A DNA stretch of 64,000 nt from a virus. Shown in pieces: positions 13,856-62,248 of this stretch. The stretch's first letter is position 1, and every line of letters begins with the position of its first letter. The position numbers and the translations under genes were made by a program. The stretch covers positions 222,867 through 286,866 of the IMG/VR virus record IMGVR_UViG_3300024259_002152. One strand, 5' to 3'. The notes beneath the pieces were generated by a model. It did no database searches. It was not told the origin of the DNA and was given only the letters and a program-made list of their open reading frames with translations.

Positions 13856-15430
13856 ATGGCTTTTGACAGATATGTAGAGGGGTTTGATCAGTGCGAGCCT
13901 CCTGTATGTCCTGAAGATATAGTTATAACTATTATCAGTGTTAGTTGCACAGAAGACAAGATGCTGCATGTAGAATGGTTGGTTACCGATAAATATAATA
14001 GAGATATTAATGGTAACTATTTAGCATGGTCTTGTGATAATCAGGATTTAGATACTACTGTTTTTCCTTCCATAGGTCCTACTTCTTATGTCTCTTATTT
14101 TGATATCTCTAGCTGTATGGGGATTATTTATTTTAAAATAAAGGTAAGAATTGGAACTACTTTTTTTGAGGGGGATTTAGAAGCGTTCGATACAGCACTA
14201 TGTACGTCAAGCGATACAGCAGTTCCAGCATCATGGTGCGGGGATTGTCCTGATGGAGTTTCTACACCTCCTCCATATCTACTGTATGTGATATCATCTA
14301 CTGTTCCTTCATATCCTACATATTTTGACTATGCAGGGTTATGCTGGTATGTAGATGATAATGAGAATGAAATTTCTATAAGGGATTTGCCAGAAGGAGC
14401 TATTTTAACTGGAGCAAGTGAAATATATTCATCTTGTGAAGACTGTTGCTTACAATTAGATTGTCCTAGTCCTTGGGTAGAATTGCCAGCAGATATTCAA
14501 GCATTTGCGGGAGAAAAGGTGGGAGTCTTTTATTTTGAATATCAGACTTATGATGTTGCAGATCAGTTATTCGTTATTAGGAACTTTTTTGAGCCAGATG
14601 ATTGTCTCACTGATGATGATGGAAATCTTTTACCTCCCCCTGATAATAAGATACTATTTGATACGGGTTGTGTGAGTACTAATTTACAGGATTGTCCATC
14701 TTTTTTCGTAGATGATCCCCTCTGTATGGATTTTGCTGCTGCTACTTATGGTTTTTGTGTTAGGGTTAGGGAGGGAGAGTTACCAATAGGTATTCTTAAT
14801 GTTTGTAATTGTAATGATACCGAAGGCACTTATTGGAGAATATGTAGTATAGATCCTGATCGCAACATTTCTAATTGGGAAGGTGGAGATGAATGTTTAT
14901 GCACGGATATGAGTTCTTCAAGCAGTTCTAGCTTAAGTAGTTCAAGTAGTTCAAGTTCAAGTTCAAGTTCAAGTAGTTCTAGTTCTAGTAGTTCTAGTTC
15001 TAGTTCTAGTAGCTCTAGTTCTAGTAGTTCTAGTTCTAGTTCTAGTTCTAGTTCTAGTTCTAGTAGTTCTAGTAGTTCTAGTAGTTCTAGTTCTAGCAGT
15101 TCTAGTTCTAGTAGTTCTAGTAGTTCTAGTAGTTCAAGTAGTTCAAGTAGTTCTAGTAGTTCTAGTAGTTCAAGTTCAAGTAGTTCTAGCAGTTCGAGTT
15201 TAAGTAGTTCGAGTAGCTCTCAAAACTTATGGTATCATGCGGCTACAGGATGGACGGGGTCAGGATGCACAGGTATACCTGCTGGTTTGGTGCTCATCTG
15301 TCTTCCATCAGGTGTTGCGAATGGAAGATGTTATAATGGAAGCTTCTCGGGTCTTCCGAGCGGATGCACAACCCTCGGACCAACAACTCCGTGCTCTGCA
15401 ATAGATGGGACATATACTGGACCTTGTTAG
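13856..15430 (+). CDS. Cys-rich protein with long serine tract (SRR protein 1)
   Basis: 524 residues. Residues 1-350 form a Cys-rich, beta-rich region (MAFDRYVEGFDQCEPPVCPEDI, WSCDNQDLD, SWCGDCPD, CEDCCLQLDCPSPWVEL). A tract of about 103 residues, almost all Ser (14912-15220), follows, then a short Cys-containing C-terminal domain (YHAATGWTGSGCTGIPAGL...). No signal peptide. The N-terminal region is shared with the products at 17144 and 19081; the C-terminal domains differ. The neighbouring glycosyltransferase suggests the serines are glycosylated. Serine linkers of this kind occur in virion appendage and surface proteins, so a virion fibre or decoration role is my inference. Confidence 0.8.
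   Translation: MAFDRYVEGFDQCEPPVCPEDIVITIISVSCTEDKMLHVEWLVTDKYNRDINGNYLAWSCDNQDLDTTVFPSIGPTSYVSYFDISSCMGIIYFKIKVRIGTTFFEGDLEAFDTALCTSSDTAVPASWCGDCPDGVSTPPPYLLYVISSTVPSYPTYFDYAGLCWYVDDNENEISIRDLPEGAILTGASEIYSSCEDCCLQLDCPSPWVELPADIQAFAGEKVGVFYFEYQTYDVADQLFVIRNFFEPDDCLTDDDGNLLPPPDNKILFDTGCVSTNLQDCPSFFVDDPLCMDFAAATYGFCVRVREGELPIGILNVCNCNDTEGTYWRICSIDPDRNISNWEGGDECLCTDMSSSSSSSLSSSSSSSSSSSSSSSSSSSSSSSSSSSSSSSSSSSSSSSSSSSSSSSSSSSSSSSSSSSSSSSSSSSSSSSSSSSSSSSSSSSSSSSSLSSSSSSQNLWYHAATGWTGSGCTGIPAGLVLICLPSGVANGRCYNGSFSGLPSGCTTLGPTTPCSAIDGTYTGPC
14912..15220 (+). repeat. Serine-codon microsatellite tract 1
   Basis: About 309 bp of alternating AGT/TCT/TCA/AGC serine codons, mostly as AGTTCT or AGTTCA hexamers, with rare TTA/TTG leucine codons near both ends. 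Length changes in units of three or six would keep the frame, so the tract is likely to vary in length. Confidence 0.9.
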
Positions 15431-15461: not shown

Positions 15462-17144
15462 ATGTTAGATTGTCAAGTAATAACAGAAAACGATGATATC
15501 TTTATTTGTAAAAAGATGGGAGAAAGAACCCATTTTAAAGATTTTAAAATACACAAATCTCAATGTGAGCAGTGCGTGAAAGATGAAGAAATAGTGCTAA
15601 GACAGTTTGAAAATAATTTTTATTTTAGCTGTTTGATAAGTGTCGATCAAATAGATAAATTAGAGAATAAAGAAGAGATTATAGAAAATACTTTAGAATA
15701 TTTTAGGCATTCTGAAAATGATCCAGATTTAGTAAATAAATTAAAATCTATGTTATTCTATTTTGTTATGAATCCTAGATTTAAATTTGATCCTATGGAC
15801 AAATTGAGGTTGGAATATATTTTAAATAATATTGAAAATTTGAATTTATCGGAATCAATGGAAAGTTTTATTAACGATGATGAAAATTTATATAATTTTT
15901 ATAAAAAGAACTTATTGGATTTAATGAGTAGTAATATAGATGTTTTTAAAAATAGTATTAAACAACAATTAGAAATGGTGGTCGTTACAAAAGATTTTGC
16001 TATTCGATTTTTTGGGGAAAATAAAGACAAATTTGATGATGCTTTTTGTGCCGATTTTCATAAGTCTTTAAAAGAGTATGATAATAATATGGGGAGGATG
16101 AAGAAAGATCCTAATTTCGTTCCTGTTTTTAAAGTATCTTTAATAGATAAAATAAAGGGGGCAAAAGAAGCATTTAAAAGAATAGTAAAGAAATCTAAAG
16201 AAGAAGGAAAAGATGCTTTATGGATCAGCGAGAAAAAAATAATAGAAAGGCAAGTTTGTTGTACTACCTGCACGGATGGAGGAAGTTGTCCTTATTGTGG
16301 TTGCCAGATAAAGAAATCATGGTTTTTACCGCTAGGAAAATCAGAATTGTCAACTGAGGGCTGTCCCAATCTCAATACTTATCCCCATCTTAAAATCTTT
16401 CCCTCAAAAAATTATTGGGAAGTGTGTGAAGAAAAAACTTCTGTGATTATAGTCGCAAGAAATGAAGAAAATTTGAATAAAACTCTTGGAAGTCTTATTG
16501 CTAATGCAACAGGAGAAATAGAAATATTAGTTGGATTAGATGGGTGCAGATATGATGTTATAAATAATGAAAAAGTTGCTACTTTACAATTTAATCAACA
16601 TATAGGTAGGAGAAAAATATCTAATCAATTAGTTAAGTTGGCTACTGGGAAATACTTATTTGAAGTTGATGCTCATTGTGCTGTTTCTTATGGGTGGGAT
16701 ACTAGGTTAAAATGTGTGTGTGATGATAATATTATTGTCGGATGTTCTGTTAATTCTATCGATGAAAAATTATGGGGATGTGATGAGGATATTAAATGGG
16801 TGGGAGGGAAAATAATAGAAGATGCAAAATGGAAATGGGATAAAATTGATAATAATGTTGAGAAGATAGAAGAGGTAGAGAGTTTTAATGCTTGCGGATG
16901 GATGATAAGAAAAGATTATTTTGAAAAATTAGATGGTCATGATGAAGATCTTGGAGAATGGGGATGGGAGAATGTTGAGTGGACATTAAAGAATAAATCT
17001 AATAGTGGTAGAATTATTATAAGAACAGATGTTATAGTATCACATCTGTTTCGGAAACAGTATCCCTATGAAATAAAAGGATTAAAGTATAATGATGTAA
17101 TACAAATATTAAAAAATAAAGACATTTACAAACAGGGTGTCTAA
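15462..17144 (+). CDS. Family 2 glycosyltransferase with N-terminal helical and Cys-rich region
   Basis: 560 residues. Residues 1-260 are helical and charged with Cys pairs (CKKMGERTHF... CEQC). A zinc-ribbon-like CCTTCTDGGSCPYCGCQI follows near 266-285. The C-terminal half is a GT-A domain: TSVIIVARNEENLNKTLGSLI near 330, LVGLDGCRYD, then LFEVDAHCAVSYGWD (DxH metal site), and CGWMIRKDYFEKLDGHDEDLGEWGWENVEW, resembling the ED-x-E/W region of polypeptide GalNAc-transferase-like enzymes. Placed exactly between two serine-tract proteins, it is the obvious candidate to O-glycosylate them, as dedicated glycosyltransferases do for bacterial serine-rich repeat proteins. A decayed copy of its 5' end lies at 19015. 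Confidence 0.85.
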   Translation: MLDCQVITENDDIFICKKMGERTHFKDFKIHKSQCEQCVKDEEIVLRQFENNFYFSCLISVDQIDKLENKEEIIENTLEYFRHSENDPDLVNKLKSMLFYFVMNPRFKFDPMDKLRLEYILNNIENLNLSESMESFINDDENLYNFYKKNLLDLMSSNIDVFKNSIKQQLEMVVVTKDFAIRFFGENKDKFDDAFCADFHKSLKEYDNNMGRMKKDPNFVPVFKVSLIDKIKGAKEAFKRIVKKSKEEGKDALWISEKKIIERQVCCTTCTDGGSCPYCGCQIKKSWFLPLGKSELSTEGCPNLNTYPHLKIFPSKNYWEVCEEKTSVIIVARNEENLNKTLGSLIANATGEIEILVGLDGCRYDVINNEKVATLQFNQHIGRRKISNQLVKLATGKYLFEVDAHCAVSYGWDTRLKCVCDDNIIVGCSVNSIDEKLWGCDEDIKWVGGKIIEDAKWKWDKIDNNVEKIEEVESFNACGWMIRKDYFEKLDGHDEDLGEWGWENVEWTLKNKSNSGRIIIRTDVIVSHLFRKQYPYEIKGLKYNDVIQILKNKDIYKQGV

Positions 17145-18973
17145 TGGCTTTTGACAGATATGTAGAGGGGTTTGATCAGTGCGAGCCTCCTGTATGTCCA
17201 ACGGATATAACGATTGAGATTATTAATGTTGTGTGTGTATCTAATACTTTATATGTTACATGGAGTATTGTAGATAATACCAGCCAGAATTTACTAGATA
17301 ATCTTAATTCCAATGATCTGCTATGGTCTTGTGATAATCAAGATTTTGATAATATTGTTTCTCCTGGATACTCTTCTACCAATATTTATACTGTTTCTTT
17401 TGATGTTTCCACTTGTGATGGAGTCATTTATTTAAAAGTAAAAGCAAAAATAGTTACTACTTTTTTTGAAAGTGGTATAGAAACATTTGATACATCGGGA
17501 TGTATTGATGTTAGTAATCTAGCAGTTCCTGCAATTTGGTGTGGAGATTGTCCTGATATAGTTTCTACTCCTCCTCCATATTTATTATATGTGAGATCTT
17601 CTACTGTCCCTTCGTACCCTACATATTTTGATTACGGAGGTTTATGCTGGTATGTAAATAGCAGTAATAATGAGATTATGATAGAAGATTTACCAGTAGG
17701 GGCCATTTTGACTGGAGCAAGTGAAATATATTCATCTTGTGAAGACTGTTGCTTACAATTAGATTGTCCTAGTCCTTGGGTAGAATTACCATCAGACATT
17801 CAAGCATTTAATGGAGAAAAGGTAGGAGTCTTTTATTTTGAATATAAAACTTATCTCGTTGCTGATAGAATATATGTAGTTAGAAATTTTGATCCAGATG
17901 ATTGTGATGCAGAAGGACCTTGGACTCCTCCGTCTGAAAAAATATTATTTGATACAGGTTGTGTAAGTACTAGTGCAGGTCCTTGTCCATCTTTTTTTGT
18001 AAGTGATCATTTGTGTTTAAGTTATGGTTCTTCTACTTATGGTTTTTGCGTTCGGGTTAGGGAGAGCGAGTTACCTATAGGTCTTGTTAATGATTGTAAC
18101 TGTAATGATGAGACTACAGATACTAATTGGGAAATATGTAGTGTAGATCCTGATGGTGTTATCTCTAATTGGGAAGGTGGGAACGATTGTTTGTGTGAAG
18201 ATGCCATGTCTTCCAGTAGTTCAAGTTCAAGTATAAGCTCAAGCAGTTCAAGCAGTTCAAGTAGTTCAAGCAGTTCAAGTAGTTCAAGTTTGAGTAGCTC
18301 GAGTAGTTCTAGCTCGAGTAGTTCTAGTTCAAGCAGTTCTAGTTCAAGTAGTTCTAGTTCAAGCAGTTCTAGTTCAAGTAGCTCTAGTTCAAGTAGCTCT
18401 AGTTCTAGTAGCTCTAGTTCAAGTAGTTCTAGTTCAAGTAGTTCGAGTTCGAGTAGTTCGAGTTCGAGTAGTTCGAGTTCGAGTAGTTCGAGTTCGAGTA
18501 GTTTTAGTAGTTCGAGTTCAAGTAGTTCGAGTTCAAGTAGTTCGAGTTCAAGTAGTTCGAGTAGCTTAAGTTCGAGTAGTTCGAGTTCAAGTAGTTCGAG
18601 TAGCTCAAGTTCGAGTAGCTCAAGTCACGCTGCTGAGGGTTGTCCCGCTACGTGTGGAGATTGTAGCGAAACTTATAATGTAGAAATAACAGGTTTTACT
18701 ACTAGTCCTGAGCATAATATTTCTACCACCGTTACACGAATTAGTGGATGTCAATGGATAACTGCTGGGATGGGTTTCGGAATGGCAGGAGCAGCTATTG
18801 AATGTGCTGGAGGAGTATGGGTAGTGCGTGAATATTATTTATTCCCATATGTAATGGCTATAATTCCATCTGGTACAGAACCTCTCGCTTATACTAATGA
18901 TTGCCCTACTACTAATTCTCCATATAACTTACTAAGTGCCATAGGAGATACTGGGATAGCAACGGTATCTTAA
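17144..18973 (+). CDS. Cys-rich protein with long serine tract (SRR protein 2)
   Basis: 609 residues, starting in an overlap with the glycosyltransferase stop. The first 23 codons match SRR protein 1 almost base for base, and the N-terminal ~350 residues are paralogous (same CGDCPD, CEDCCLQLDCPSPWVEL, FDTGCVST, CVRVRE motifs). Serine tract of about 139 residues at 18209-18625. The C-terminal domain is different and longer (HAAEGCPATCGDCSETYNVEITGF... GVWVVREYYLFPYVM), beta-rich with Cys. The swap of C-terminal domains behind a conserved base fits receptor-binding or decoration proteins. Function inferred. Confidence 0.8.
   Translation: MAFDRYVEGFDQCEPPVCPTDITIEIINVVCVSNTLYVTWSIVDNTSQNLLDNLNSNDLLWSCDNQDFDNIVSPGYSSTNIYTVSFDVSTCDGVIYLKVKAKIVTTFFESGIETFDTSGCIDVSNLAVPAIWCGDCPDIVSTPPPYLLYVRSSTVPSYPTYFDYGGLCWYVNSSNNEIMIEDLPVGAILTGASEIYSSCEDCCLQLDCPSPWVELPSDIQAFNGEKVGVFYFEYKTYLVADRIYVVRNFDPDDCDAEGPWTPPSEKILFDTGCVSTSAGPCPSFFVSDHLCLSYGSSTYGFCVRVRESELPIGLVNDCNCNDETTDTNWEICSVDPDGVISNWEGGNDCLCEDAMSSSSSSSSISSSSSSSSSSSSSSSSSSLSSSSSSSSSSSSSSSSSSSSSSSSSSSSSSSSSSSSSSSSSSSSSSSSSSSSSSSSSSSSSSSSSSSSSSFSSSSSSSSSSSSSSSSSSSSLSSSSSSSSSSSSSSSSSSSHAAEGCPATCGDCSETYNVEITGFTTSPEHNISTTVTRISGCQWITAGMGFGMAGAAIECAGGVWVVREYYLFPYVMAIIPSGTEPLAYTNDCPTTNSPYNLLSAIGDTGIATVS
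18209..18625 (+). repeat. Serine-codon microsatellite tract 2
   Basis: About 417 bp coding for roughly 139 residues, nearly all Ser, with single Ile, Leu and Phe interruptions. Blocks use different codon pairs (AGTTCA, AGTTCT, AGTTCG), each repeated locally, which indicates repeated slippage or unequal exchange within the tract. Confidence 0.9.
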
Positions 18974-40284: not shown

Positions 40285-41268
40285 ATGTCAAAAGATAACA
40301 GTTTTTTAAAGAACGGTAATTTTGCGCCAGGAAGACTTTTTACAGGTTTAATCAAAGATATTCCAGATAAGAGAGACTATAAATTCTCTGATATCATGAA
40401 GCAGCAGGGAACTATAAAAACAATTAAGGTTAAAGTGTTAAAGCCAAAACCTTTAAAAAGAGGTTGTTTTAGAAAACATGGATATAAGATTCCTTTAGAA
40501 GAAGTGACAGTAGCAATCGATGTTGCTACTCCAAAACTGTTAAGCAGCTCTCCCTTTCAAATAGATCACTCTAAAAATATGTCTCTCGTAAAAGACCAGA
40601 AAAATTTAGGTACTTGCGTGGCATTTTCCGCAGCCGCGTTAAAAGAATGTCAGGAGAAAGAAGAGCATGATAGAGAGGTAGTATCTGGGAAAGAATATAA
40701 CAGAGATAAAGAATATGATTATTCTGAACAATGGATATATTGGAATTGTAAAAAGATAGATGGTTTTTCTGGGTCAGAAGGAACAACTATCAGAGACGCC
40801 ATGAAAGTATTGAAGAATATTGGAGTTCCTACCGAACAAGCTTGGCCTTATACTGATGATCCTGTGAATATAGGAAAACCAGCAAGTTGGGCAAATATGA
40901 TTGCTCGTTGGGCAACTATAGGGTCTTATTGGAATGTCTCAAATTTAACAGAATTAAAAGCAGCATTAGTAGAAGGTCCTGTTATTATTGGTGTGCCTGT
41001 ATTTGCAGAGTGGTGGGAACCTCCTGGTGGAGTGGTTAATTACCCATCTAATCCATCTTTAATGTATGGAGGGCATGCTATTTGTGCTGTGGGTTATGAT
41101 GAAAGTAAACATTTGGTGAAGTTTAAGAATAGCTGGAGCACATATTGGGGAGAACAAGGGTATGGCTATTTGTCGTATAGATATATAGAGGATTTCTTAT
41201 GGAGCGGATGGGCAGCAAGAGATATTTCTGTGACAAGAGATATGTTAAAAGGAACAAGAGAGTTGTAA
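40285..41268 (+). CDS. Papain-family (C1A) cysteine protease
   Basis: 327 residues. Catalytic set visible: Gln105, Cys111 (VKDQKNLGTCVAFSAAAL), His264 (MYGGHAICAVGYD) and Asn282 (VKFKNSWSTYWGEQGYGYLSY). Residues 1-90 form an N-terminal extension containing FTGLIKDIPDKRDYKFSD, the segment often found in bacterial C1A proteins. No signal peptide. A full, apparently active papain domain is unusual in a phage; maturation of structural proteins or attack on a host factor are both possible. Confidence 0.93.
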   Translation: MSKDNSFLKNGNFAPGRLFTGLIKDIPDKRDYKFSDIMKQQGTIKTIKVKVLKPKPLKRGCFRKHGYKIPLEEVTVAIDVATPKLLSSSPFQIDHSKNMSLVKDQKNLGTCVAFSAAALKECQEKEEHDREVVSGKEYNRDKEYDYSEQWIYWNCKKIDGFSGSEGTTIRDAMKVLKNIGVPTEQAWPYTDDPVNIGKPASWANMIARWATIGSYWNVSNLTELKAALVEGPVIIGVPVFAEWWEPPGGVVNYPSNPSLMYGGHAICAVGYDESKHLVKFKNSWSTYWGEQGYGYLSYRYIEDFLWSGWAARDISVTRDMLKGTREL

Positions 41269-41320
41269 TCCATTGTAAGATAAGAAGTTATAAAATTATC
41301 AAAAAAATAGAAAATAGTTA

Positions 41321-41348
41321 TTGACAAAGTAGAATTTGTCGATATAAT
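41321..41348 (+). promoter_or_regulatory. Promoter driving the structured RNA and tmRNA
   Basis: Consensus TTGACA (41321-41326), 16-bp spacer containing AAGTAGAA, TATAAT (41343-41348). Predicted start near 41355. A similar spacer occurs in the Ro60 promoter at 60435. Confidence 0.78.
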
Positions 41349-41354
41349 ACTATC

Positions 41355-41843
41355 ATTGACAAGTAAATAGAGAGAATGATATGGGTTGAAGGTGTGTAGG
41401 TTATCGAAAATACTGGCCCTAAGGTTGGCATCTCAGGGAACGCTACTCGATAGAGTAGTTGGGGCGACTGAGTGAGAATACCGAGCAACCTGGATGTATT
41501 TCCAGGCTCTGCGTGCCGAATACGATACCCTTCGGGATTCGTACAGGTGGCCATAAGTGCTCCAATTCCCTATGCCCGTGACATATCCATATTTTTTAAT
41601 TAATATGTTGGCTGCATGGTGTGAAAACGTTGAGAGGCGACATGCTGAAACCACATGAAAAGCTTGAACTGCTTTTTACAGAAAGTAGGTGCGGGTTTAA
41701 TAAATGGTGGGTATAAAATTTGCCCAAGGGTATCGAGGGCCTTTGGTAGCCGCCGCGTACGGCAAGCCATAAATCGTAGCAAGTAGCGGGTAAAGCCAAT
41801 CTTGTCCAACATGTTAATTATTTGTTCTTTAAAAAATAAATAT
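41355..41843 (+). ncRNA. Unidentified large structured RNA upstream of tmRNA
   Basis: About 480 nt without a credible gene on either strand; the base composition is visibly more G/C-rich than the coding regions. Hairpins seen: CTACTC-GATA-GAGTAG (41443-41458), CCTGGA-TGTATT-TCCAGG (41489-41506), TACGA..CCCTTCGGG..TCGTA (41521-41543), and GCCG..CGGC near 41750-41765. TAATTAATATGTTGG (41597-41611) pairs with CCAACATGTTAATTA (41806-41820) through 15 bp, one G-U, enclosing a 195-nt domain. It is transcribed from its own promoter together with tmRNA. It lacks RNase P, 6S and group I/II hallmarks. Phage-borne GOLLD and ROOL RNAs also lie next to tRNA genes, but I cannot match their consensus. Confidence 0.6.
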
Positions 41844-42188
41844 GGGGTCGAAAGGTTTTCGATTAGATTAGGAGAAATCAACGGCGTGTACGAGATAGTA
41901 GTTGGCTCGTTAAAAATCTACTAAAAACTGTAATTGGCAACAATTATGCAATGGCTGCCTAAGCAAAATTAGGTTGTCTATCTTCTGATTCCTATTAGGA
42001 AGAATAGGCAAAAGCAATAGGATAGCATAAACTCTTTTTCTCAAGAGAGGTGAAGCGAAATTAATTTGGGATAGAAATGATGAACCCTGTCAATTGGGGT
42101 CAGAGTTTTGAAATTTAAATAATTGACTACACACGTAGAAGTTGATTTTGAAATATTCTAAGACTGGGCTTCGATGCCCACGACTCCA
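41844..42188 (+). ncRNA. ssrA: tmRNA (transfer-messenger RNA)
   Basis: Acceptor stem GGGGTCG (41844-41850) pairs with CGACTCC (42181-42187), keeping the G3-U70 pair that alanyl-tRNA synthetase recognises. T arm TGGGC-TTCGAT-GCCCA at 42165-42180. 5' GG.TTTTCGATTAGA resembles the conserved GGATTCGAC region. Tag frame GTA ATT GGC AAC AAT TAT GCA ATG GCT GCC TAA at 41930-41962 gives, with the charged Ala, AVIGNNYAMAA, the same length as AANDENYALAA and ending in the protease-recognised AA. CCA is not encoded (ACT follows the discriminator position), so 3' CCA must be added. Would rescue stalled ribosomes with a phage-specific tag. Confidence 0.92.
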
Positions 42189-42236
42189 CTTTTAAAAAAA
42201 CGCCTATCAAAAAGGCATATAATAAGATAGGACATT

Positions 42237-56674: not shown

Positions 56675-57823
56675 ATGACTCTAAAAGCATTTAAATTTAG
56701 ATTAGAGCCTAATTTACAACAAAAAGTTTTGATTAACAAAACTTTAGGTTGTTGTAGATTTATCTATAATCAAATGCTTAACGAAAAATAAACTAAATAC
56801 AAAAATTCTGGTAAATCTTCCACTAAAACTGAAAAAGAATATAAAATAGAGTTTGATTGGTTAAAAGAAGTAGATAGTATTGCTCTTCAGCAATCTCGAA
56901 TAGATCTAAAGACTGCTTATGATAATTTCTTTAGAAAAATTAAAGCAGGACAACCTACTAATCTAAGATTTAAATCCAAAAAAAATCCTAAAAACTCTTA
57001 CAGAACTATAAATATTAATAATTCTATTAGAATAGCAAACAATACTATTAAACTTCCTAAGTTGGGATTTGTTAAATTTAGAAAATCAAAAGAAATATCA
57101 GGAATTATTAAATCAGTCACAATTTCTAAGAATATCTTAAATAGATATTATATATCTGTTCTTTGTAGAACAGAGATAGAAAATTTTCCTGAATTAGATG
57201 CTAAAATAGGAATAGATGTGGGATTAAAAGATTTTTGTATTACTTCAAACAATGAATTTGTTTCTAATCCTAAATATTTAAGAACATTAGAACTTAAATT
57301 AAAGAAAGCACAAAAAATACTCAGTAAAAGAGCTAAAGGTGGTAAAAATAGATTTAAACAACAAAAGAGAGTCTTTAAGATACATGAGAAAATCAGAAAT
57401 CAGAGGTTAGATTTTTTACATAAATTATCTACTAAACTAATTAACGAAAACCAAGTAATCTGTTTAGAAGATTTACAAGTAAAGAATATGGTAAAAAATC
57501 ATTATTTGGCTAAAAGTATTTCAGATGCTAGTTGGAGTAAATTTATAGAATTGCTAAAATACAAAGCGGATTGGTATGGAAGAAATCTAATACAAATAGA
57601 TAAATTCTTTCCTAGTTCAAAACTTTGTAGTAATTGCGGAAGTGCCAAGAAAGATTTGACTCTAAAAGATAGAGAGTATTATTGTAGTTCTTGTGGAATT
57701 ACAATTGACAGAGATTATAATGCTTCATTAAATATTTTGAATGAAGGATTAAAAATATTAAATAGCGGTTGGGACGACCGTGATAGCTTACCAAATATAC
57801 AAACACTAGTTTGTAGTTCGTAA
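56675..57823 (+). pseudogene. tnpB: TnpB RNA-guided nuclease with one in-frame stop
   Basis: ATG 56675 opens MTLKAFKFRLEPNLQQKVLINKTLGCCRFIYNQ, the standard OrfB/TnpB start. Codon 39 is TAA (56789-56791); beyond it the frame is open to 57823. Catalytic residues are kept: Asp in GIDVGLKDF (residue 181 of the full frame), Glu in ICLEDLQVK (265), Asp in IDRDYNASLNIL (347), with zinc-finger Cys pairs CSNCG...CSSCG. Only the single stop disables it, so decay is recent, or the stop is a sequencing error or is read through. An ORF from 57062 could yield a C-terminal fragment. Confidence 0.9.
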
Positions 57824-60520: not shown

Positions 60521-62248
60521 ATGGCTAAGTATGCAAATCATGTAGCGAATCCAAAGACTTCACAAACAAAGAAGGCAAAGAGTACTCAGGTAAAAGGCAG
60601 AGCGGGTGGGTATGTTTTCAAGGTCGATGACTGGACAAGGCTGAACCGTTTCCTAATCATTGGTAGTGAGAAGGGTTCTTACTATGCCTCTGATCGTGAG
60701 TTGACTATGGAGAATTACGACTGCATCCTGAATTGTTTGAAGTTGGATGCAAAGCGTACTGTCGATACTATTGTAGAGATTAGTGATCAGGGTCGTGCCA
60801 TTAAGAATGATCCAGCTATCTTTGCATTGGCGGTATGCAGTGTTCATGGCGACGAAAAGACCAAAGCATATGCTAATCTAGTTATGCCTAAGGTTGCTCG
60901 TTTCTCTACTGCTTTCTTCTCATGGGTTGATTCTATCAACACATTGAAGGAAGGTCGTAAGGGTAAGGGTCTGTTAAGAGCCATTGGAAGATGGTATACA
61001 GAAAAAGATGCTGTGAAGTTGGCATACCAGATTTGTAAGTACCCAGGTCGTTCAATAGGTGGCCAAAGATGGACTCACGGGGACGTTTTGCGTCTTGCAA
61101 GGATCTCTCCATCTAAGGATGGCAGACCTTCTAGAAATGGTAGGGCACTAACGATTCCTTCAGAGGACCATGCTACTGTTTTTCATTACGCAACACATGG
61201 TATCACAACTGCTGCGACTCTTGCTCAAAGAGAAAAAGATGCTAAAGCTACTGGTAAGACCCAGGAAGCTCCTGGTATCTCTGTAAAGCAGTATAAAGCT
61301 TTGAAGGATAGTAAGCTTAAGTATATCTGGGCACATGAGCAATGTAAGGTTGCGACTAAGAATAGTGAAGTAGTTTCATTAATTAAAAACTACAATCTTA
61401 CAAGAGAATCTGTCCCTCCACAGTTTAGAAATGAATTGTTGGTGCAAAAGGCCCTGCTGCCAGGGATGCCTATGACTGCTTTGATCCGAAATTTGGGAAG
61501 CATGACTTCTTCAGGTCTTTTGAAGCCATTGGCTGATGAGACTTCATTAGTAATCGACAAGATTACAAATGAGGAAATACTGAAGAAGAGTCGTATTCAT
61601 CCTATGACACTTATGCTGGCATTGAAGACTTACAGCAGTGGTAGTGGCATGAGGACTACTTGGAAGCCTGTAGGAGCTATCAAAGATGCTATGGAAGATG
61701 CTTTCTACAAAGCGTTCAACTATGTTGAGCCAACTGGAAAGAAATTTCTTTACGGTATTGATGTTAGTGGTTCTATGGGTTGGTCAGAAGTTAATGGTAT
61801 GCAAGCACGCGAAGCTGCCGCAGTCGTAGCAATGACGTGTGCAAGAACCGAGAAGAACTATGATCTTATGGCTTTTGGTCATGCATTCGTGCCACTTAAC
61901 ATTACCGCTAAGGATAGTTTGGATACTGTGGTTAGACGAACTGCTAATTTGAATTTTGGCGGAACTGATTGTGCATTACCTATGAAGTATGCAATGAAAA
62001 ATGGTCTGGATGTTGATGTGTTTGTTGTTCTAACGGACAGCGAGACATGGTTTGGTGATATTCATCCATTTGAAGCATTGAAGCAGTATCGCAAGAAGTT
62101 CAATAAGAACGCCAAGCTTGCCGTGTTGGCATTTACAAGCAATGGCTTTACAATAGCCGACCCAAGCGATGCGGGAATGATGGATATTGTTGGTTTGGAT
62201 TCTAATGTGCCGAAGGTATTATCTGAATTCGCGGCAAATAGACTTTAA
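60521..62248 (+). CDS. rsr: Ro60/TROVE-domain RNA-binding protein (Rsr-like)
   Basis: 575 residues, close to the ~540 of Ro60. The TROVE part (about 30-390) shows the Ro60 pattern: RLNRFLIIGSEKGSYYASDRELT, KRTVDTIVEISDQGRAIKNDPAIFALAVCS, RKGKGLLRAIGRWYTEKDAVKLAYQICKY, RWTHGDVLRLARISP, and PGMPMTALIRNLGSM. The C-terminal vWA domain carries MIDAS GIDVSGSMGWSEV near 418, Thr in NFGGTDCALP and VVLTDSETWFG. Ro60 binds misfolded RNAs through its toroid and Y RNAs on its surface. SD AAGGAG upstream. No Y RNA is visible next to it. GC content of this gene looks higher than its surroundings. Confidence 0.94.
   Translation: MAKYANHVANPKTSQTKKAKSTQVKGRAGGYVFKVDDWTRLNRFLIIGSEKGSYYASDRELTMENYDCILNCLKLDAKRTVDTIVEISDQGRAIKNDPAIFALAVCSVHGDEKTKAYANLVMPKVARFSTAFFSWVDSINTLKEGRKGKGLLRAIGRWYTEKDAVKLAYQICKYPGRSIGGQRWTHGDVLRLARISPSKDGRPSRNGRALTIPSEDHATVFHYATHGITTAATLAQREKDAKATGKTQEAPGISVKQYKALKDSKLKYIWAHEQCKVATKNSEVVSLIKNYNLTRESVPPQFRNELLVQKALLPGMPMTALIRNLGSMTSSGLLKPLADETSLVIDKITNEEILKKSRIHPMTLMLALKTYSSGSGMRTTWKPVGAIKDAMEDAFYKAFNYVEPTGKKFLYGIDVSGSMGWSEVNGMQAREAAAVVAMTCARTEKNYDLMAFGHAFVPLNITAKDSLDTVVRRTANLNFGGTDCALPMKYAMKNGLDVDVFVVLTDSETWFGDIHPFEALKQYRKKFNKNAKLAVLAFTSNGFTIADPSDAGMMDIVGLDSNVPKVLSEFAANRL

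Follow-up and report, generated by a model that had tools for sequence, protein, structure and literature searches.

A candidate structured RNA of an uncatalogued family directly upstream of tmRNA in three related jumbo phages

The stretch of DNA analysed here (the window; 64,000 nucleotides) is part of a 350,866-base virus record, designated G000 in our comparison set, and carries on its plus strand, at 41844..42191, a one-piece tmRNA gene with no encoded CCA. The gene matches the Rfam model RF00023 over its full length (model positions 1-374, 124.7 bits) and was not detected by ARAGORN; its reading frame ends in ...GNNYAMAA-stop. Phages are already known to encode tmRNA, and this gene is a canonical one-piece representative of the jumbo-phage type. 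The locus differs from such known cases in its leader, where two RNA modules, here termed RNA A and RNA B, lie outside tmRNA and share no sequence similarity with it. An earlier note on this DNA had described a strong sigma-70-type promoter leading into the region, and a TTGACA-N16-TATAAT sequence matching the consensus at 12/12 positions is indeed found at 41321..41348 on the plus strand, with a predicted transcription start at ~41355. The ~490 nt between promoter and tmRNA are noncoding: the longest plus-strand ORF in the leader has 43 aa, as a check for coding sequence established, and no plus-strand terminators occur between promoter and tmRNA. The order of elements is thus promoter, RNA A, RNA B, a boxA-like element and tmRNA, and we read 41321-42191 as a probable jumbo-phage stable-RNA operon.

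Besides G000, RNA B is carried by G002 (297,710 bases) and G005 (547,943 bases), close relatives in which the gene order around tmRNA is as in G000 and the methyltransferases near the locus are 84% and 66% identical, respectively. In blastn searches with the locus, G002 matches from ~41599 on and G005 over a shorter part, in both cases between promoter and tmRNA; together with covariance-model matches at the same site, this places the conserved structured RNA at 41599..41818 on the plus strand. Promoters of the form TTGA[CT]A-N16-TATAATAC also lie 5′ of tmRNA or RNA B in G002, G005 and a further phage, G001, making the promoter type common to four phages. The homologue set therefore comprises three sequences, all from one phage clade, with RNA B measuring 220 nt in G000 and 240-265 nt in the relatives. 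Single-base indels among these homologues argue against a coding function, and the minus-strand ORF that overlies RNA B returned no matches when used as a query.

Beyond this set, a model built on the interior of RNA B (R1) found no counterpart in six named jumbo phages, in G001 or in two short contigs, G003 and G004 (best outside E 0.25). No other copies of RNA B were found in the G000 genome, and blastn revealed no relatives of RNA A or RNA B in INPHARED or PLSDB. A Paenibacillus plasmid match in PLSDB was rejected because it spans only 36 nt and lies inside a gene, and six pattern matches in further contigs (L035-L040), along with L041, were attributed to chance, representing coding-like DNA whose similarity ends short of RNA B. 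The earlier note had envisaged one large structured RNA filling the leader; as a single RNA this does not hold, given that the relatives share only 41599-41818, while it stands in the form of two modules, of which, judging from the compared genomes, only the 3′ module (RNA B) is a conserved family.

The ends of RNA B are predicted to be joined by a long-range helix. A 15-bp version of this helix (41597-41611/41806-41820) had been read in the sequence and is present in the minimum-energy fold; its 13-bp core, the closing helix P1 (41599..41611 / 41806..41818, plus strand), pairs at 13/13 positions in 3/3 phages and covaries, four pairs showing two-sided compensatory changes on a hand-anchored alignment of the three phages. 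The adjacent hairpin P2 (41614..41645, plus strand, with 41614-41618 facing 41641-41645) retains five pairs in 3/3 phages with three two-sided compensations. The hand-anchored alignment was used for this count because MAFFT had placed the 5′ end of G005 wrongly. None of 500 column shuffles gave any helix more than two double changes, so that P1 and P2 exceed all shuffles—a control that preserves column make-up rather than relatedness, applied to three sequences in which P1 and P2 doubled as alignment anchors.

Two inner helices, P3 and P7, show one two-sided change each, which lies inside the shuffle range. Helix P7 (41779..41783 / 41801..41805, plus strand) changes from GCAAG/CUUGU to GCGGG/CCUGU on both alignments. 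Helix P3 (41669..41673 / 41785..41789, plus strand) reads CUGCU/AGCGG, CCGUU/AACGG and CCGUU/AGCGG in the three phages and is seen on one alignment only, the hand-anchored one offsetting the window's strand. Because P3 crosses P7, RNA B is likely to be pseudoknotted, and the covariation appears to favour the long-range pairing 41669-41673/41785-41789 over a competing local hairpin (CUGCUUUUUACAGAAAGUAG, 41669-41688) that is not conserved. Fold energy is insufficient by itself for such a claim, since single-sequence folds are only mildly more stable than those of shuffled sequences (z of -2.16 for the whole leader, -1.79 for its 5′ part and -2.16 for its 3′ part). In an energy model of the transcript comprising RNA A, RNA B and tmRNA, P1 has a probability of 0.13, compared with 0.9 when RNA A is left out, suggesting that RNA A may interfere with P1 or must fold first. 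The compensatory changes present in the two relatives nevertheless support a structured RNA of an uncatalogued family directly 5′ of tmRNA, and we read RNA B as a genuine conserved noncoding RNA, probably pseudoknotted, that P1 closes at its ends.

The 5′ module, RNA A (about 41375..41593, plus strand), stands out by its G+C content of 0.50, as against a window mean of 0.335, the highest among all 215-nt segments; high G+C is typical of structured RNA in A+T-rich genomes. It contains clear hairpins of the kind already pointed out by eye, two of them perfect (41443-41458 and 41489-41506) and one a UUCG hairpin (41521-41543), and its predicted fold is derived from energy (z -1.79). No RNA A homologues were found in the relatives, INPHARED, PLSDB or Rfam, the 5′ 240 nt being specific to this phage. 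Comparisons of RNA A with RNA B, the G002 insert described below and tmRNA led us to reject it as a diverged copy of any of these.

The Infernal search of Rfam suggested by the earlier note (GOLLD, ROOL, RNase P, introns) agreed with its view that no known family fits: at the gathering threshold over the whole 64 kb no family matches the leader, and at E<=10 there is no match in 41250-41900, nor a GOLLD/ROOL or intron match in the G002 homologue. RNA B likewise had no counterpart in Rfam 15 or the literature searched. GOLLD and ROOL, which had been proposed as the nearest idea by context, are phage or prophage RNAs located near tRNA islands, and many GOLLD members exceed 800 nt (PMC12286853). 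The context is loosely similar in that RNA B, too, would be a phage-borne structured noncoding RNA adjoining stable RNA genes and is likely pseudoknotted. However, RNA B shows no Rfam similarity to them, its conserved part is far smaller (220-265 nt versus >800 nt) and it adjoins tmRNA instead of lying within a tRNA array; a homo-oligomeric RNA cage is a further mark of those families. Inspection also revealed neither the canonical P7 of group I introns nor the domain V of group II introns, and GGAAAGUCC and the ACAGAA-type elements of RNase P RNA are absent from the expected places in RNA A and RNA B. The best reading is that RNA B represents a small and hitherto unlisted family of structured RNA in phages, probably expressed together with tmRNA, for which a function can be proposed from its setting.

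Part of this setting is a boxA-like element of the tmRNA leader, TTGTTCTTTAAAAA (41822..41835, plus strand), which contains GTTCTTTAAAA, an 11-nt boxA published for a CRISPR array in Legionella (PMC7862264). Four exact copies exist in ~1.4 Mb of four phages, all at tmRNA-leader junctions: before tmRNA in G000, G005 and G002, and before the extra leader RNA in G002. Near-copies precede the first array tRNA in G002 (245946, 245971) and lie between tRNAs in G000 (328095); one-mismatch matches elsewhere are about as frequent as in the control, which leaves exact identity and position as the evidence that counts. As in rRNA and CRISPR leaders, where boxA serves Nus-factor antitermination (PMC7862264), a strong promoter and a boxA-like GTTCTTTAAAA stand ahead of a long untranslated RNA, both here and in the relatives; the difference is that the element precedes a phage tmRNA, that a structured RNA lies between promoter and boxA and that the Nus role is predicted from the motif. 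The tRNA arrays of these phages, with ~25 tRNAs per 10 kb each, bear boxA-like motifs as well (L052, G000 326000-336000; L053, G002 245000-255000). A candidate noncoding RNA 5′ of the arrays was discarded on finding a small conserved ORF (MTISTRNPVV...) in its ~310-nt conserved region, which also holds a terminator.

Less was borne out of the suggestion that 41587-41599 and 41829-41845 extend the long-range helix into the first bases of tmRNA, so that leader and tmRNA might influence each other's folding. The complementarity is present (duplex ~-8 kcal/mol), but in the folded transcript its straight register, the one tested, has a probability of ~0, and no equivalent pairing with the tmRNA 5′ end was seen on inspecting the relatives. 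Mutual folding is thus not supported, and we regard the complementarity as incidental, being A+U-rich, without a counterpart in the relatives and of near-zero probability.

RNA modules seem to come and go in the leader, between a promoter and a tmRNA that persist. In G001 (219,188 bases), a more distant relative that shares a C1 peptidase beside tmRNA (51% identity), the same kind of promoter leads directly to tmRNA, and LR756511 and Lak-B7, more distant phages with tmRNA, have no space for RNA B there. Conversely, G002 possesses an extra ~130-nt insert between RNA B and tmRNA (L031 5181-5310) with complementary ends (TAGCAG...CTGCTA), bounded by two TTGTTCTTTAAAAAT copies, i.e. a duplicated boxA; no homologue of this insert was found. 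RNA A and RNA B are therefore optional cargo. As to the neighbouring peptidase gene, tmRNA lies ~2 kb from a C1 peptidase in the Prevotella phage Lak-B7 (L069, L059), suggesting an old linkage, and the translation of the C1 peptidase of G001 (L005 8933-11305) suggests that an intein interrupts it.

What the sequences show is the promoter match, a leader devoid of coding sequence and plus-strand terminators, the conserved position, the covariation and the boxA-like repeats; how RNA B may be transcribed and processed, as well as an action in trans and its target, we infer. A single transcript would start at ~41355, and host Nus factors would bind boxA, allowing the untranslated RNA to escape termination. 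RNase P would then cut the tmRNA 5′ end, and in the trimming of the leader P1 would shield both ends of RNA B. Once set free, RNA B would be stable on its own and act in trans in the infected cell; produced alongside tmRNA, it may support or redirect host translation or RNA machinery. For RNA B to be an RNA in its own right, cut from a common stable-RNA transcript, we put the odds at about even.

A less likely explanation is that RNA B (and RNA A) is a cis-acting leader without a separate life, controlling transcription elongation or maturation of tmRNA in the manner of a put-type antiterminator or of an element for pre-RNA processing. In favour of this, RNA B lies between promoter and tmRNA in 3/3 phages with boxA always next, and its 3′ end, as set by P1, is within a few nt of boxA and ~26 nt from tmRNA. 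Yet tmRNA without room for RNA B in G001, LR756511 and Lak-B7 indicates that RNA B is unnecessary for tmRNA expression, the tRNA arrays of phages bearing RNA B carry boxA-like motifs but no RNA B copy, and the size and internal conservation of RNA B go beyond a leader's needs. We prefer the independent RNA on account of the first two of these observations. Considerably less probable is a mobile or self-splicing element in the tmRNA leader, such as a group I-like intron in reduced form, or an insertion of another kind, comprising RNA A, RNA B or both. RNA B is missing from the orthologous G001 leader, RNA A, RNA B and the third insert vary independently between phages, and strands in the order P3, inner domain, P7, P3′, variable hairpin, P7′ give a topology similar to that of the group I core; against this, Rfam gives no group I or II match at E<=10, a GACUA/UAGUC-type P7 is absent, a 13-bp helix joining both ends is atypical for group I introns, and RNA B is single copy in the genome, with no target duplication seen and no ORF. 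Finally, an A+U-rich leader with chance hairpins and no structured RNA would fit the fold z of only about -1.8 to -2.2, but is very improbable, contradicted for RNA B by cross-phage conservation and compensatory changes and at odds with RNA A being the window's G+C maximum, even if it keeps some standing for RNA A taken separately.

If RNA B is indeed independent, the small set of known large phage RNAs would gain a compact class. More speculatively, and rather doubtful in our estimation, RNA B could be the founding member of a new, pseudoknotted class of phage RNA that shares a transcript with tmRNA and acts in trans on the host machinery of translation or RNA decay, with the tmRNA leader as a docking site where jumbo phages of this clade load different RNAs (RNA A, RNA B and the third in G002) upstream of boxA-like elements. 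A conserved, covarying RNA on the predicted tmRNA transcript offers a concrete handle on the purpose and regulation of phage tmRNA, and the boxA-like motifs suggest that these phages use host rRNA antitermination factors for their stable RNA operons.

Elsewhere in the window, a Ro60/TROVE-vWA protein (60521-62248) is 64-84% conserved in four related contigs and <40% in named phages. Two proteins related to each other, both with very long runs of serine, are encoded at 13856-15430 and 17144-18973, and a short ORF at 57062-57823 (253 aa) resembles, by eye, an OrfB/TnpB-type nuclease.
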